Shown one piece after another: positions 9,890 through 20,004 of a stretch of DNA of 63,636 bases. The stretch spans positions 1-63,636 of the forward strand of contig DUBN01000038.1 of the NCBI GenBank assembly GCA_012960315.1, given 5' to 3'. Made by a program: the position numbers and the translations under genes. The notes below the pieces were generated by a model. It was not told where the DNA came from, searched no databases, and saw only the letters and a list, made by a program, of their open reading frames with translations. The first letter of the stretch is position 1, and the number at the start of each line of letters is the position of its first letter. The DNA comes from Acidimicrobiia bacterium (GTDB lineage Bacteria; Actinomycetota; Acidimicrobiia; Acidimicrobiales; Poriferisodalaceae).

Positions 9890-11599
9890 ATGACAGGGAA
9901 TCATTGGAAGCGGGCAAGTCTCGAGTTGCGGGCGGCCGGGTTTGAGCCCGAGACCATCGCGGCGAAGAACACGATCGTTACGGTGGCGGGTGCCTACACA
10001 AACGCCCATCGCTGCAACAACCGGGTCGAGCGCATATCGGACCTGATGTCGGAGTCGATCGCTTCGCATGGCGGACAAGGGTTGGTCGTTGGTGCGCCGG
10101 CGGTCTCCGATGCTCTCACCCAGGGTTCACCCAATGCCAGCTACAGCCTCGTGTCACGAGACATCATCGCCGACTCGTTCGAGATCGGGCATCGGGCCCA
10201 TCACGGCGAGGCGATGGTTATCATCTCGGGCTGCGACAAGACGGGCGCAGCCGCGATGATGCCCCTGGCTCGCACCAACGACGTTGGACTCGTGATCTAC
10301 CCAGGGACTAGCTCGCCGGGCTGCGTGAACTTTGAGCCATGGGCGTCGAAGGGTAACAACCTGACGATTCTCGACTGGGCCGAGGCACGAGCGGCGATGC
10401 GAGCCGATCGGATCAGCCGAGAGGAATTCGAAGAGGTCGAACGGAACGTGATGCCCGGCAGTGGCACCTGCGGGGCAATGTTTACAGCGAACACCATGAG
10501 CACCATCACCGAGGCAATGGGGATGATGTTGCCCCGGGGCGCCTCGCATCCGGCCGACTACAACGCCGCGAGCGATATCCACGACGACGTGAAGGCTCAG
10601 GTGGAAGCAACCGCCGAAGCTCTGTACACCCTGATCGAAGCCGACCTTCGGCCCCGGGACATCATGAACACGAAGGGCTTCGAGAACGCCATCACCACCG
10701 CCTACGCGATGGGGGGCTCAACCAACATGTACCTCCATTTGCTGGCGATCGCTCGCGATGCAGAGGTGGCCCTCACCATCGATCGCATCCAGGAGATCGG
10801 CGAGCGGGTGCCACTCATTGCGAATCTTCAGCCGCACGGTCCTTACTCGATGGTCGCCCTGCACGAACTCGGCGGAGTGCCGGTCGTGATGAAGGAGCTC
10901 CTTGATAACGGCTTCCTACATGGCGACGCCATGACGGTCACCGGAAAAACTCTCGTTGAGAACCTGGCTGACGTGGCCTCGCTGGCCGATTTGGGTGACC
11001 AGGACTTGGTGCAACCGGTGTCAGCCCCGGCGGCCCGACCGAACAACCACATCACGGTCCTGCACGGAAATTTGGCTCCGGAGAGTTGTGTCCTGAAACT
11101 GGGAGGCAAGACTCTCGAGACGGGCGAGTTCCGCGGAATCGCCAAGGTGTTCGAAAACGAACCGGACGCCATGACGGCCATTCAGTCCGGAGTCATCGTG
11201 CCTGGCGACGTGGTTGTGGTGCGCAACGTCGGCCCCAAGGGGGGCCCCGGTATGCCCGAGATGGTGATGCTCACCATCGAGTTGCAAGGACGCGGTTTGG
11301 GCAAGGACGTCGCGCTCATCACTGATGGCCGGTTCAGCGGTGTCTCGCACGGAATCCTCATCGGACATATTTGCCCCGAGGCGGCCGACGGTGGTCCGCT
11401 CGCAGCAGTGCAGGACGGCGACACAATCGTCATCGATCCGGTTAATCGGACTCTTGACGTAGCGATCGACGACAGCGAGTTACAGCGACGGATGGCGACG
11501 ATCGGGCCGAGGGACTTGCCGAGCACCATTCCGCAGGGTTCGGTGTTGCGCCGGTACGCCCGACACGTATCATCGGCCCACTATGGATGTGTGCAGTAG
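9890..11599 (+). CDS. IlvD/Edd family dehydratase (dihydroxy-acid dehydratase-like)
   Basis: A 569-residue protein of the dihydroxy-acid/6-phosphogluconate dehydratase family, which removes water from 2,3-dihydroxy acids using an Fe-S cluster. Likely cluster cysteines lie in AHRCNNRV, IISGCDKTGAAAMM and GSGTCGAMFTANTM. The conserved C-terminal GPKGGPGMPEM and TDGRFSGVSHG motifs are present and length is normal. Purine-rich GGTGGGGGG lies just before the ATG. No isoleucine/valine genes are adjacent, so this may be a sugar-acid dehydratase paralogue rather than the biosynthetic IlvD. A thioredoxin-fold gene follows. Confidence 0.85.
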   Translation: MTGNHWKRASLELRAAGFEPETIAAKNTIVTVAGAYTNAHRCNNRVERISDLMSESIASHGGQGLVVGAPAVSDALTQGSPNASYSLVSRDIIADSFEIGHRAHHGEAMVIISGCDKTGAAAMMPLARTNDVGLVIYPGTSSPGCVNFEPWASKGNNLTILDWAEARAAMRADRISREEFEEVERNVMPGSGTCGAMFTANTMSTITEAMGMMLPRGASHPADYNAASDIHDDVKAQVEATAEALYTLIEADLRPRDIMNTKGFENAITTAYAMGGSTNMYLHLLAIARDAEVALTIDRIQEIGERVPLIANLQPHGPYSMVALHELGGVPVVMKELLDNGFLHGDAMTVTGKTLVENLADVASLADLGDQDLVQPVSAPAARPNNHITVLHGNLAPESCVLKLGGKTLETGEFRGIAKVFENEPDAMTAIQSGVIVPGDVVVVRNVGPKGGPGMPEMVMLTIELQGRGLGKDVALITDGRFSGVSHGILIGHICPEAADGGPLAAVQDGDTIVIDPVNRTLDVAIDDSELQRRMATIGPRDLPSTIPQGSVLRRYARHVSSAHYGCVQ

Positions 11600-11668: not shown

Positions 11669-12019
11669 ATGTCCATAGAAGAGCTTTCAACCTTGCCAGA
11701 TGGATTAGTAATATTTGTCAGAAAGGACTGCCCAACATGTGTCGAAATACAGTCGGTGCTTCGGCAGCTATCCAAAAGTGATTTAGTTCTAACCGTTTAC
11801 TCAGATGACCCTGGCTTCCCGGCGAGAGTCAGTACCGTGAAACATGACCGCGATCTGCGCGTTTTTCGGAAGAACGAAGTTGACGACGTGCCAACCTTGA
11901 TACACGTTGTCGATGGCCGCGCGGTGGCGAGGACGGTGGGTTGGGAGCGACGTTCCTGGGAGGCCTTAACCGGCACTGACGACCTTGGATTAGATCTTCC
12001 AGACTGGCGTCCCGGTTGA
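11669..12019 (+). CDS. Thioredoxin-fold protein (CxxC)
   Basis: A 116-residue protein with a redox motif CPTC in VRKDCPTCVEIQSVL and the cis-proline region DVPTLIHVVDGRAV, the two key features of a thioredoxin/glutaredoxin fold. The C-terminus ends LDLPDWRPG. No signal peptide, so cytoplasmic. The start appears leaderless. It directly follows the IlvD-like dehydratase in the same direction (69-base gap), so a role in protecting or reducing that Fe-S enzyme is conceivable but only inferred. Confidence 0.75.
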   Translation: MSIEELSTLPDGLVIFVRKDCPTCVEIQSVLRQLSKSDLVLTVYSDDPGFPARVSTVKHDRDLRVFRKNEVDDVPTLIHVVDGRAVARTVGWERRSWEALTGTDDLGLDLPDWRPG

Positions 12020-15085: not shown

Positions 15086-15478
15086 TCAAGCGCCCCCATG
15101 CTTCCAGTAGGTGTCCTTTTTGACGATCCGATCCATACGGTCAAGCGTGTACAGATCGACGGCCGCGACCTCGAACTTCTTGCCCTGATCGGTGCCTGAG
15201 ATGGTGAACGACTGGGTTATGAGTTTGGGCGCGAAATATTCATTCAGGGCCTCGAACCGGACGTTGCTCCAAGTCCGCTTGCGTCGTTCGAGCTCAACAA
15301 CCATCTCGTCGACACCCCGCAGGACGCGGCCGGTCGAGATGGGGTGGTTGGGATCGAACGTGTGTGTGTGCCATTCGAACTCATCGCCCAACACCCCCGC
15401 GAGCAGCTCACGGTCCGCGGCGGCGAACGCCTTTCGGAACCGATTCATGATGTCTTCGTACTCTGCGAGCTCATTCAT
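15086..15478 (-). CDS. SnoaL-like (NTF2-fold) protein
   Basis: A 130-residue protein with the NTF2/SnoaL pattern: helix YEDIMNRFRKAFAAADRELL, GVLGDEFEWH, and beta strands ending AAVDLYTLDRMDRIVKKDTYWK. The start at 15478 is supported by AAGGAG four bases upstream; the longer frame has none. Members are polyketide cyclases, isomerases or ligand-binding proteins; function here is unknown. Likely cotranscribed with the upstream redox genes. Confidence 0.85.
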   Translation of the reverse strand: MNELAEYEDIMNRFRKAFAAADRELLAGVLGDEFEWHTHTFDPNHPISTGRVLRGVDEMVVELERRKRTWSNVRFEALNEYFAPKLITQSFTISGTDQGKKFEVAAVDLYTLDRMDRIVKKDTYWKHGGA

Positions 15479-15504
15479 TAGACTCCTTGATGTCCTCGTC
15501 AAAC

Positions 15505-16102
15505 CTAAACCGTTCGTTCACTGCCCATGCGACCGGTTGTCCGAAGCACTCGCTGAACGTGAACCAGTGGCCGCTTAGCCAGGCCCCAGTGTCCGAACGG
15601 TTTACCGATCGGAATCATGGCGTCGAACTGCCAATCTGAGTCTTCGGGTATTCCGAGCAGGCGATCGGTTTTAGCCTGATGAAACCGCAGCACATCCGTG
15701 AAGGTTGGCCCAAGTTCATGTGCTCATGCCGCCAAGCAGAGTTGCCATGCGACAGGAAACGAGGTGGAGCCGAGGACGATCACTGGTACCTCAGCACGGT
15801 GTCGCCCCAACCAGCCGGCAGTCTTGACCGTTGCAGGATCCGGCGGTCCCGCGAGATCATCGGGGTCAGCTGGCGGAGCTGGTTGGAAATACAGCTGCTT
15901 CATCCCGTCGGTGTACAGGACCTGCGGCTCAGCCTTCGTGCCGGCGTCGCCGAACGATGACGAACCGGACCCACATCCGGTTTTCGCCAGATAGTCCGCT
16001 CAGAGCGGCATCAAGCGGTCTGGCGATGAAGTCATCGTCGATCGGATCGGGCGCCAGGCGCCGCATCGCCCGCGTGGCGTCAAGAAGGTCAAGTGCAACG
16101 AT
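15505..16102 (-). pseudogene. Nitroreductase family protein, decayed
   Basis: Read across frames the minus strand encodes a nitroreductase: ALDLLDATRAMRRLAPDPID, RFVIVRD, a middle part with VPVIVLG, and IPEDSDWQFDAMIPIGKPFG near the end. Three lesions are visible: the likely start codon is ATC (16102) after GGGGAG; one extra base in CGGCGAC near 15952 shifts the frame within VIVRD; and an in-frame TGA at 15721-15723 lies in LCLAA-stop-AHELG where arginine (CGA) is expected. It follows the AhpD-like selenoprotein candidate and was probably cotranscribed. Confidence 0.8.
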
Positions 16103-16134
16103 GGCTAGCTCCCCATCGTCCGATTGCGCCGTTC

Positions 16135-17256
16135 TCAGCGCGGAGTGTCCTGGCTACTGAGGTACTCGTTCGCGCCGAACTGATCGGTCACCGATGGTGC
16201 TAGCCCTGCCATGGCTCTATCGAGCGGAGTACCGGTGCCGTTGGCGACTCGGTTCATCAGATGGAAGAGCGCGCTGACCCCTACGGCGTCCACGAGTGCC
16301 TCTCGGCCCATCGCTGATTCGACTTCGTCTCTCACGTCGCTCAGAACATGCTCGCCCGTGCCTGCCATTGCTTCTACAAGCCTCACTAGAAGCTCCCCGT
16401 GTTCCACACCGCCGTCGCCGTGACCCGAACCCCGGACCGCATCCAACGAGATATCCACACCTTGGGCTTGCCCACTCAGACCGAGCAGGACAGCGTGGCT
16501 GGACGCTCAGTAGAAGCATTCATTTATAGCGGATGTCCGTGCGCCGATCAACTCGATCTGGGGGCGTTGCAGAGACCAGACCGACTCTGCAAAGTCACCG
16601 CCGAGAGCCCCGCCGGGGACATAGTGGGCGTCAATGAGAACCCATTGCATGACCCTTTCCGGCGGGACGAGGCTGAGCGCTCTACGTACGTTGGGGACAC
16701 CACGGGCAGCCGACAACCCGGTGCCCTCTGAATGGTCAACCGGCTGCCATGAGTCGTCAACGATGGGTGCAGTGGGTACCCAGTGGGTCGACACAGCGGC
16801 GGCGGCGGGCGTGATGCGCGTGGGTTCACCATCGATAGGTTGGCGAAGTCGTGGTCTTGGCAACGAAAGCCCATCAGCGAAGTGATCGACCAGATTCACT
16901 TGGGATATAAGCCCGATCAGCTCCACGTATTCTCCGGCCTCGAGCGCCGATGGTACAAGATCCTGGTACCACTCCAAGGTGAGGGTGGTGAGATGGTTCG
17001 TCACCCGCCAGACCATGTCGATCGCGGCAGATGGAAGAGGGTGGTCGTCGGGGATCAGACCCTCAACGGTTGACGGAGCGATCCAGGGTGGGAGTTCGTC
17101 GGCGTCGCGTGCACGCCGAACCTCTTCGACTGCGGCAGTTCGCTCGACTGCGGTCAACCAAGTGCCGGGCGACGCCCAGTGCTCGAGAGCAGCTGACTGC
17201 GTGCTGATTATCTCGGACCGAATGGGAAGTTCTGTGTCGTAAAGGGAGGTGTTCAT
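16135..17256 (-). CDS. AhpD-like / carboxymuconolactone decarboxylase family protein, candidate selenoprotein with in-frame UGA
   Basis: Read through one TGA (16507-16509) this is a 373-residue protein. The 249 codons before and 123 after are in the same frame. Around the stop: E235-x11-C247-F-Y-[UGA250]-A-S-S-H254, exactly the AhpD active-site pattern E-x11-C-x2-C-x3-H with UGA replacing the second redox cysteine. The protein resumes with AVLLGLSG and later ALVDAVGVSALFHLMNRVAN, a typical C-terminal helix of the family, so coding clearly continues. A hairpin with GGUCU loop follows 24 nt after the UGA. AhpD-type proteins are thiol peroxidase partners. The start overlaps the stop of the upstream monooxygenase (ATGA). 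Alternative: a simple nonsense mutation, noting that the neighbouring nitroreductase is decayed. Confidence 0.75.
16471..16489 (-). promoter_or_regulatory. Candidate bacterial SECIS hairpin
   Basis: In the RNA, CCUGCUC (16489-16483) pairs with GAGUGGG (16477-16471), seven pairs with two wobbles, closing a 5-nt loop GGUCU. The loop begins 24 nt after UGA 16507-16509, inside the usual bSECIS window, and GGUCU also occurs in the SelB-binding loop of E. coli fdhF (known). A competing GCGU/ACGC hairpin right after the UGA is possible; folding was done by eye. Confidence 0.55.
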
Positions 17257-18338
17257 GATCGAGTGGCCCGTTCAACTGGCTTGGTGGAGGTAGGTGCGGA
17301 AGAGGACGAGATACGGAGATCGGGCATCACCTGATTGGCGAATAGATCCAGCGATCGCTTCACCAGCTGCCAAGGCTGTCCGCCGTAGTCACCTTGGTAG
17401 GTGAATCGATCGAAGTCACAGATCCCGTCAATGGAGCCGATGCGGTCCACGACTTCCTCGGGGCTCCCGTTCACGATCGCGCAGTTCGGATTGTCGAGTT
17501 CGGTTATGTGGGGGGGCAGTTGGACATCATCGGGGTTGGCACCCGTTTTCTTCGAGCCCACCCAGCGCTGGAACGGGAACTGATAGACACCGAGGTGACT
17601 GTGCGCTTCCTGGCTTGTCGGGGCTACATGAACGTGGGCGTGCAGGGTGACGCGGGGCTCGTGAGTGTGTCCAGCCGCGTCCCAGGCCTCGTGGTAGCTC
17701 TCGACGAGTCGCGGCAAGACCTCGCGCGGGAAGTACAGCAGCGAGATTGTGACGCCGAGTCCCGCGGCAGCCGCATCGGCTGCCGATTGGGGGCTAGAGC
17801 ACGCCACATAGACCGGTACATGTGGCTGCTGCACCGGCCTCGGCTCCAGAGTGACATTATCTAACGGAGGCCTGAAAGATCCATTCCAGGTCACGTCCCG
17901 CTCGGTCCATAACTTCAGGAGCAGCTCCAACCCCTCCTGTTGCATCTCGAGGGCCCTTTCGTTGTCTTGGCCAAACTGGCGGTAGACAGACGGTTCGACA
18001 CCTTTACCCACCCAGACTTCGGCTCGCCCCTCTGAGACCACGTCGAGGGTTGCAAAGTCTTCAGCGAGGCGAACTGGATCGTGATGGGGCAACAACGTTA
18101 CCCCAGTCCCGAGGCGGATCCTGGAGGTCCGCCCTGCGAGCCAGGCTAGGAAAACTTGCGGGACTGCGACGATGAAGTCGCTGAAGTGATGCTCGCCGAC
18201 CAGCACCGCGTCGAAGCCAGCGGGCTCAGCAAGGTCGATGTAGTCGAGAATCTCGCTGTGCCGCTGGGCCTGAGAGTTTCTGATCCCGGTCAAAGGGTCA
18301 GCGCGGTGGTCTCCGAGTGTGAGCAGGCCGAATTCCAT
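17253..18338 (-). CDS. LLM-class flavin-dependent monooxygenase
   Basis: A 361-residue luciferase-like monooxygenase (TIM barrel). It begins MEFGLLTLGDHRADP and contains FDAVLVGEHHF (conserved EHH), then a strand ending RIRLGTGVTLLPHHDPVR and GRAEVWVGKG. The start at 18338 is preferred because the longer frame adds 35 residues unlike the family; AGGA lies close upstream. Its stop overlaps the start of the AhpD-like gene (17253-17256), so the two are translationally coupled and probably act together. Substrate unknown; FMN versus F420 not resolved. Confidence 0.88.
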   Translation of the reverse strand: MEFGLLTLGDHRADPLTGIRNSQAQRHSEILDYIDLAEPAGFDAVLVGEHHFSDFIVAVPQVFLAWLAGRTSRIRLGTGVTLLPHHDPVRLAEDFATLDVVSEGRAEVWVGKGVEPSVYRQFGQDNERALEMQQEGLELLLKLWTERDVTWNGSFRPPLDNVTLEPRPVQQPHVPVYVACSSPQSAADAAAAGLGVTISLLYFPREVLPRLVESYHEAWDAAGHTHEPRVTLHAHVHVAPTSQEAHSHLGVYQFPFQRWVGSKKTGANPDDVQLPPHITELDNPNCAIVNGSPEEVVDRIGSIDGICDFDRFTYQGDYGGQPWQLVKRSLDLFANQVMPDLRISSSSAPTSTKPVERATRS

Positions 18339-18564
18339 ATTCCTATCATTATCCAAATGGTGAGATTCTGCCCAAAAACAAGACTTCCAGGTCATCGGAC
18401 ACATTCTCTGGTGCCCCAGAGGTGCACCTGGGAGGCATTTCATTCAATCGACGCTTCGAGTGCTGATCCGGTGGTGTGCCGCTACTCCCCCAGATACATC
18501 TACTGATTATCGGTGTGGGTTCGTGTTTGGTTCAGCGGCCTGTGCACGCTTGGGATCAGGGTTT

Positions 18565-20004
18565 CTATGGTTCCCAGATTTCAGTACGTGGATGCATGCC
18601 GTACCACGCGAACCAATACATTTGGTTTGCCGTGATGCGATGAAGCGTTGGAAAGCCGCGAACCTGGGCTGCTTTCTCCGTCCAAAATTCGATATCAAGA
18701 AAATCGATATTTGGATGGTCCGAAGTCGAAGCGGCGAGATACAACCGTGCGCCTGTCTTTGTCGGCATCACTAACAGCAGCCGAGATGCGAATTCCAAAG
18801 CAAACGGGTACTCCTCCTCCATGTAGCGGACCGGGATCGCCAATGAATCTCCGTCCAAATTCACTCCGACAATTTCTTCTTTTGGATCCAAACCGGCGGA
18901 TGGAGTGACCGTGGGAAACCACAAATCTTCGGAGGCGTAATAAGACGAGTAAGCGGAATCGGGGGTGTAGTCATAAGCAATTGGCATTCGTTCCGGTTGA
19001 TCAGGGAACCATGTCGGCTCAGGAATACTCAACGTGAGCGTATGGGGATGCTTTGCGAGCCAATCTGCCCAACTAGTCGTGACCAACGGCAGGGTCTTCA
19101 GAACAGTCCCCTTTAGCGGCCCTGTGATTGCTTCTCCTTGCAAATGTCGCCAAAGACTATTTGTCTCGTTGTCCACCATAATTTTGTTGGAGTCAATCAG
19201 CAGGCCAGACGTTTGAAAGGTGAGTCGATTGTCGTTGTGGCCCGTTTGGAAGAGGATTCCCGTTTTACAAAGACTGCAGTAACCCAATGCGATTGGCACT
19301 TCGCCAACAACATCGTTCACGAATTCGTGATGATTGACGAACCGAAGGGGATAGGCAATTGGTGTTTCCCCTACCACCGCTCCCAGAACAAGTTCGTTGT
19401 CGGTCAAAAAGTCGGCTTGGTGAGCAAGTATGTGCTCGGGAAAGTTTAGTTCAGGGATTCCCCCTCTCCTTACCCCACCCCATTGCATTTTCGAAAGCAG
19501 GTTCGCATCCTTGACCCCTTGCAATAAGGCGTAATACTCGGCATCAATGGTCGACAAAAAGGCTTTTTTCCATTCCACGTAGCCCGCCCCGGGGTGGAAG
19601 CCGTTGTTGCGAAACCAGTTCCCGTAGGTAACAAAATCTGATCCCAAGTTCCCGTCGGCAGCAATACTGCTGAGGTCTTGTAGAGCTCTTGTCGCAGCAA
19701 GGGTTGTTTCGGAACTAAATCCAAGACGCAGAATGTCCAGTAGCCACGCAACCCATCGTGTATCTCCTGATTGACCCATAGTTGCCGCGATATTCGCTGC
19801 AAAAATCGTGTTGGGGGTCTCAATAAAGCTTTGTATTTTCTCATCAAGAGTGAGCTCAAGAAACGGTCGATCACTCAATATCGAAGCAATCCACTGAGTC
19901 GATGGCGCTGGTTCGGAAACTTGAAACTCGGAACTACCCTCACCACTCAAGCAGGAAGTAAGTGAAAGCGATGCGACCAAAATGGGTACGAAATTCCGTC
20001 GCAT
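18565..20004 (-). CDS. DUF3179 domain lipoprotein
   Basis: A 479-residue secreted lipoprotein. The N-terminus MRRNFVPILVASLSLTSCLS carries a signal peptide and lipobox LTSC. The DUF3179 region spans roughly residues 195-450, with AYPLRFVNHHEFVNDVVGE and ALGYCSLCKTG (conserved C-x2-C), then SGLLIDSNKIMVD. DUF3179 proteins are widespread in marine bacteria and archaea and have no assigned reaction; the paired cysteines suggest metal or redox chemistry. Processing would need the Lgt encoded at 25897-26727. Confidence 0.88.
   Translation of the reverse strand: MRRNFVPILVASLSLTSCLSGEGSSEFQVSEPAPSTQWIASILSDRPFLELTLDEKIQSFIETPNTIFAANIAATMGQSGDTRWVAWLLDILRLGFSSETTLAATRALQDLSSIAADGNLGSDFVTYGNWFRNNGFHPGAGYVEWKKAFLSTIDAEYYALLQGVKDANLLSKMQWGGVRRGGIPELNFPEHILAHQADFLTDNELVLGAVVGETPIAYPLRFVNHHEFVNDVVGEVPIALGYCSLCKTGILFQTGHNDNRLTFQTSGLLIDSNKIMVDNETNSLWRHLQGEAITGPLKGTVLKTLPLVTTSWADWLAKHPHTLTLSIPEPTWFPDQPERMPIAYDYTPDSAYSSYYASEDLWFPTVTPSAGLDPKEEIVGVNLDGDSLAIPVRYMEEEYPFALEFASRLLLVMPTKTGARLYLAASTSDHPNIDFLDIEFWTEKAAQVRGFPTLHRITANQMYWFAWYGMHPRTEIWEP

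Follow-up and report, generated by a model that had tools for sequence, protein, structure and literature searches.

The window analysed here starts at the first base of a 112 kb contig and covers 63,636 bases of it; the genome has 2.82 Mb in 91 contigs and is 96.6% complete. This window almost certainly contains a gene for a selenoprotein of the NF041238 family, with selenocysteine (Sec) at residue 250. As judged from sequence comparison, the product would be an AhpD-related protein of 373 residues whose Sec takes the place of the second Cys of a C-x-x-C site, and its gene is coupled to that of a luciferase-like monooxygenase.

An in-frame UGA at the second Cys position

The gene occupies positions 16138-17256 of the minus strand, running from an ATG at 17256-17254 to a terminator TGA at 16137-16135. 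It consists of 249 codons, one UGA, and 123 further codons, the UGA (16509-16507) being the only internal stop. In the read-through product, the site reads E235-x11-C247-F-Y-U250-A-S-S-H254. The original prediction had placed a single TGA at the second Cys of an AhpD-type C-x-x-C motif, with coding continuing in frame for 123 codons past it, and the reading frame, otherwise open, agreed on both counts.

Among 66 distinct homologues, selected with a motif that permitted only Sec or Cys at this position, 63 had TGA at codon 250 and the other 3 had TGC (Cys), with nothing else found; the check that the original prediction had proposed, for homologues with Cys or UGA there, came out in favour of Sec. 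An independent family search of 397 genomes gave nearly all full-length matches with one TGA. Matches above the cut-off were present in 83 of the 397 genomes of the order; within a set of 148 related genomes, 59 had a match, and the full-length ones nearly all contained one TGA. The closest orthologues (L019 and L020) were 66-67% identical to the window protein. Four paralogues occur in the source genome, all with TGA (C38, two on C78, one on C5). Those outside the window (C78:182850-183890, C78:210599-211666, and C5:7359-8387 of G000; L082, L083, and L084) have different neighbourhoods. Close homologues with TGA, 56-59% identical, were also seen on contigs binned as Gammaproteobacteria (L078, L079, L080, and L081), in genomes with selB, which suggests either inter-phylum transfer or mis-binning. 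The rare Cys forms, CFYC (L087, L088, and L101), apparently represent Sec-to-Cys changes, and in them the hairpin described below is weakened or lost.

Since the gene next to this one has decayed, the TGA might be a nonsense mutation and the gene a pseudogene as well. Yet, its frame is intact apart from the UGA, and the same codon recurs in the great majority of homologues from many genomes, as would not be expected of a random mutation, which the original prediction had already considered unlikely. Moreover, selection acts alike on both sides: compared with L019, pN/pS was 0.217/0.703 before the UGA and 0.205/0.603 after it. We consider a pseudogene highly improbable.

The genome encodes the selenocysteine machinery

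The original prediction had called for a genome check of selA, selB, selD, and tRNA-Sec, and every one was present. A profile search identified selB with 284 bits (cut-off 242), with selA (396 bits) and a WhiB gene beside it; the WhiB gene, given where such genes are known to occur, points to Actinomycetota. The tRNA-Sec scored 65 bits and has the anticodon TCA (UCA in RNA). The selD gene (L017, 1390-2451, minus strand) encodes a selenoprotein too, an in-frame TGA occupying its catalytic Cys codon (GAGUACK). Together, selA, selB, selC, and selD make up the set by which a bacterium is judged able to make selenoproteins.

That several genes have an in-frame UGA could also be accounted for by an alternative code in which UGA is read as an ordinary amino acid. 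Against this, the luciferase-like gene and the selenoprotein gene both terminate at TGA, the in-frame UGAs in the genes examined fall at redox sites of the Cys type, and tRNA-Sec and SelB are present. Such a code has, in our view, hardly any probability, and decoding as Sec is the reading we retain.

Family members with UGA also co-occur with selB, which was found in 78 of the 82 genomes with UGA-bearing members, versus 142 of the 315 others (p~1e-18, a value that treats the genomes as more independent than they are, those of one order being related). The four UGA-bearing genomes without a selB match are each incomplete (74-83%). One genome with a Cys copy of the family, G280, had no selB above the cut-off and only a weak EF-Tu-like match, which we interpret as EF-Tu rather than SelB.

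A SECIS-type hairpin lies just downstream of the UGA

As the original prediction had proposed to look for, a bacterial SECIS-type hairpin was found near the UGA. It lies past this codon, at 16471-16489 of the minus strand (CCUGCUC-GGUCU-GAGUGGG), with the loop GGUCU at 16478-16482, and it starts 17 nt after the UGA. The published bSECIS model describes a loop of 3-9 nt, a stem of 4-16 bp, a G in the first two loop positions, a distance of 16-37 nt from the UGA, and a minimum free energy of at most -7.5 (PMC13188914). The hairpin fits this model, with a loop of 5 nt that begins with GG, 7 bp, 24 nt between UGA and loop, and an energy of -7.9 kcal/mol.

Conservation of this structure was assessed on 27 related sequences, from which near-duplicates had been thinned by hand. 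Pairing was retained in 98.1% of cells, and two-sided changes occurred in 3 of 6 pairs. The covariation score was higher than in all 500 shuffles, slid versions of the hairpin scored lower, and RNAalifold returned the same hairpin unprompted. When synonymous constraint was computed on same-residue pairs, it peaked just past the UGA, the best stretch of 9 codons being +6 to +14 (excess 0.49, versus a mean of 0.04 and a standard deviation of 0.07 over all such stretches). In the three Cys homologues, the energy of the hairpin was -1.2, -6.1, and -4.9, versus a median of -8.7. On the other hand, the hairpin is short. When single sequences of 48-61 nt spanning the UGA were folded, the z-scores were not significant, the window sequence itself favours a different structure at 61 nt, and a search of Rfam gave no family matching the hairpin.

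Termination generally competes with Sec insertion, and on this ground the UGA could be regarded as a true terminator, leaving a functional protein of 249 residues. But the 123 downstream codons, which include H254, are conserved like the rest, the three Cys homologues read on past codon 250, and a SECIS-type hairpin follows the UGA. We therefore give almost no credit to a genuine stop at this site. Instead, SelB and tRNA-Sec would decode UGA250 as selenocysteine, directed by the hairpin 17 nt downstream.

Family membership and active site

The read-through product matched the NF041238 profile with 321 bits (cut-off 175), residues 12-365 covering positions 1-355 of the model, and it has the C-F-Y-U site with an in-frame UGA. 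NF041238 is the NCBIfam entry AhpD_rel_CFYUT, ‘alkylhydroperoxidase-related (seleno)protein’. Thus, the original reading as an AhpD-like CxxU selenoprotein was right, except that the family had been recorded as one of selenoproteins before. In a 2026 review, the entry for NF041238 reads ‘AhpD-related protein (hypothetical protein 1, Sargasso Sea metagenome)’ with a CxxU motif (PMC13188914), and the hypothetical protein 1 family of the 2005 Sargasso Sea selenoproteome comprised four sequences with a SECIS hairpin (PMC1088965). The family was thus known before, as were its motif and the presence of Sec, and the present gene is a further member. The long N-terminal domain, by which the original prediction had set this protein apart from known AhpD-like selenoproteins, is in fact standard for NF041238, so that the protein is no unusual AhpD fusion. 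The window protein shares with the family the full-length match, the CFYU motif, and Sec at the second-Cys position, but it has Ala after the Sec (CFYU-A), where the family has Thr (CFYU-T). Its gene also differs in being coupled to that of a luciferase-like monooxygenase; most other family copies examined had no such neighbour.

When compared with AhpD-like peroxidase-related proteins (TIGR01926; structures 6k40, 3c1l, 2pfx, 2oyo, and 2prr), the C-terminal half of the window protein aligns and has all five relay residues of the PA0269 type, whereas some 190 N-terminal residues are additional and Sec stands for Cys. It scored below the cut-offs of both TIGR01926 (40 versus 81.8) and PF02627 (17.9 versus 23). 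The AhpD-like 1 and AhpD-like 2 selenoproteins of the Global Ocean Sampling survey have in common with it a CxxU in an AhpD/CMD-type domain (PMC2398784), but they are separate families (COG2128, PF02627), the window protein remaining below the PF02627 cut-off.

Across 23 aligned members, E235, C247, Y249, U/C250, and H254 are invariant, and the window protein contains the whole AhpD proton-relay pattern, Glu-x11-Cys-x-Tyr/His-Cys-x3-His. The weak peroxidase PA0269 from Pseudomonas aeruginosa has Glu36, Cys48, Tyr50, Cys51, and His55 as the corresponding residues (PMC3141380); the selenoprotein has them in the same spacing, with Sec250 at the place of Cys51. The family profile matched solved AhpD-like structures over the C-terminal half (4e-12). 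An AlphaFold run on five sequences returned a poor model (pLDDT 45).

Gene neighbourhood

The luciferase-like monooxygenase gene (Bac_luciferase, by profile match) lies at 17253-18341 of the minus strand, its start being set at an internal ATG that agrees with the orthologues. Its stop overlaps the start of the selenoprotein gene in an ATGA at 17256-17253. The coupling claimed by the original prediction is therefore real, and two close relatives, L085 and L086, have kept it. A gene for a SnoaL-like (NTF2-fold) protein at 15086-15502 (minus strand, PF12680) completes the conserved cluster as its third member. In L085 and L086, the luciferase-like, selenoprotein, and SnoaL-like genes are adjacent, without the nitroreductase relic described below, and the cluster has an aldehyde dehydrogenase gene and one of the TetR type at its flanks, as read by eye from the translations. 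On Gammaproteobacteria-binned contigs, homologous luciferase-like and selenoprotein genes lie about 3 kb apart; in L078, a flavin monooxygenase and transporters accompany them. In the window, the cluster is adjoined by a gene for a DUF3179 protein at 18565-20004 (minus strand).

Between the selenoprotein gene and the SnoaL-like gene, which are adjacent in relatives, sits a nitroreductase-like relic with a frameshift and a TGA (15547-16120, minus strand). As the original prediction had cautioned, this downstream neighbour is a pseudogene with its own TGA, and its pieces lie in two frames. The longest of them is similar to nitroreductase-type proteins that the genome encodes in intact form; a Pfam search with its two pieces gave no match. 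By eye, the relic TGA falls at an apparent Arg position of the intact copy, unlike the Sec UGA.

We also scanned the codon usage of the window for TGAs with 40 coding-like codons on each side, which gave four places. Besides the Sec UGA, one is the ordinary stop before ssb (57378); the remaining two are TGA 15197-15199 (plus strand), which is antisense to the SnoaL-like gene and probably belongs to a shadow frame, and TGA 10718-10720 (minus strand). Separately, a thioredoxin-like gene at 11669-12019 (plus strand) has a TGA exactly at a Cys codon of its homologues of about 496 residues (RPG-C-GS), and its closest homologues extend about 380 residues past that Cys. It was rejected as a second selenoprotein and taken as a truncated copy, because nothing homologous follows the TGA. 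Two longer relatives of this gene occur elsewhere in the genome.

Discussion

With Sec250 in the second-Cys place of the AhpD C-x-x-C, the predicted active site would also include Glu235, Cys247, Tyr249, and His254. The enzyme would most likely reduce a hydroperoxide or another oxidised small molecule, after which cellular thiols may re-reduce the Cys247-Sec250 selenenylsulfide. From sequence, we lean moderately towards a peroxidase-type activity. A lesser, though appreciable, probability goes to a selenoprotein that is no peroxidase and whose CxxU carries out some other redox or decarboxylase-like reaction with the monooxygenase product: the CMD/AhpD superfamily has non-peroxidase members, PA0269, whose relay position holds Tyr, is only weakly active as a peroxidase (PMC3141380), and the neighbouring genes are for oxygenation and catabolism. 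The conservation of all five AhpD relay residues speaks against it. Our best guess is a reductase of the CxxU type that acts on a hydroperoxide or small molecule in a monooxygenase pathway.

Because its gene is coupled to that of the luciferase-like monooxygenase, the selenoenzyme would probably protect the oxygenation step or act on its products, as part of a small catabolic cluster. A more specific proposal, which we put forward tentatively and hold to be possible rather than probable, is that the subgroup is a dedicated partner of the monooxygenase that handles peroxide or the oxidised product, in a catabolic module of luciferase-like, AhpD-Sec, and SnoaL-like proteins.

For annotation, the correct reading is important because gene callers would end the product at residue 249 and so drop the active site. 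For the family, the preponderance of Sec over Cys copies (63 against 3) means that Sec is almost obligatory. The conserved coupling to the monooxygenase is a modest new lead, which provides a first concrete functional hypothesis for one subgroup of the family.
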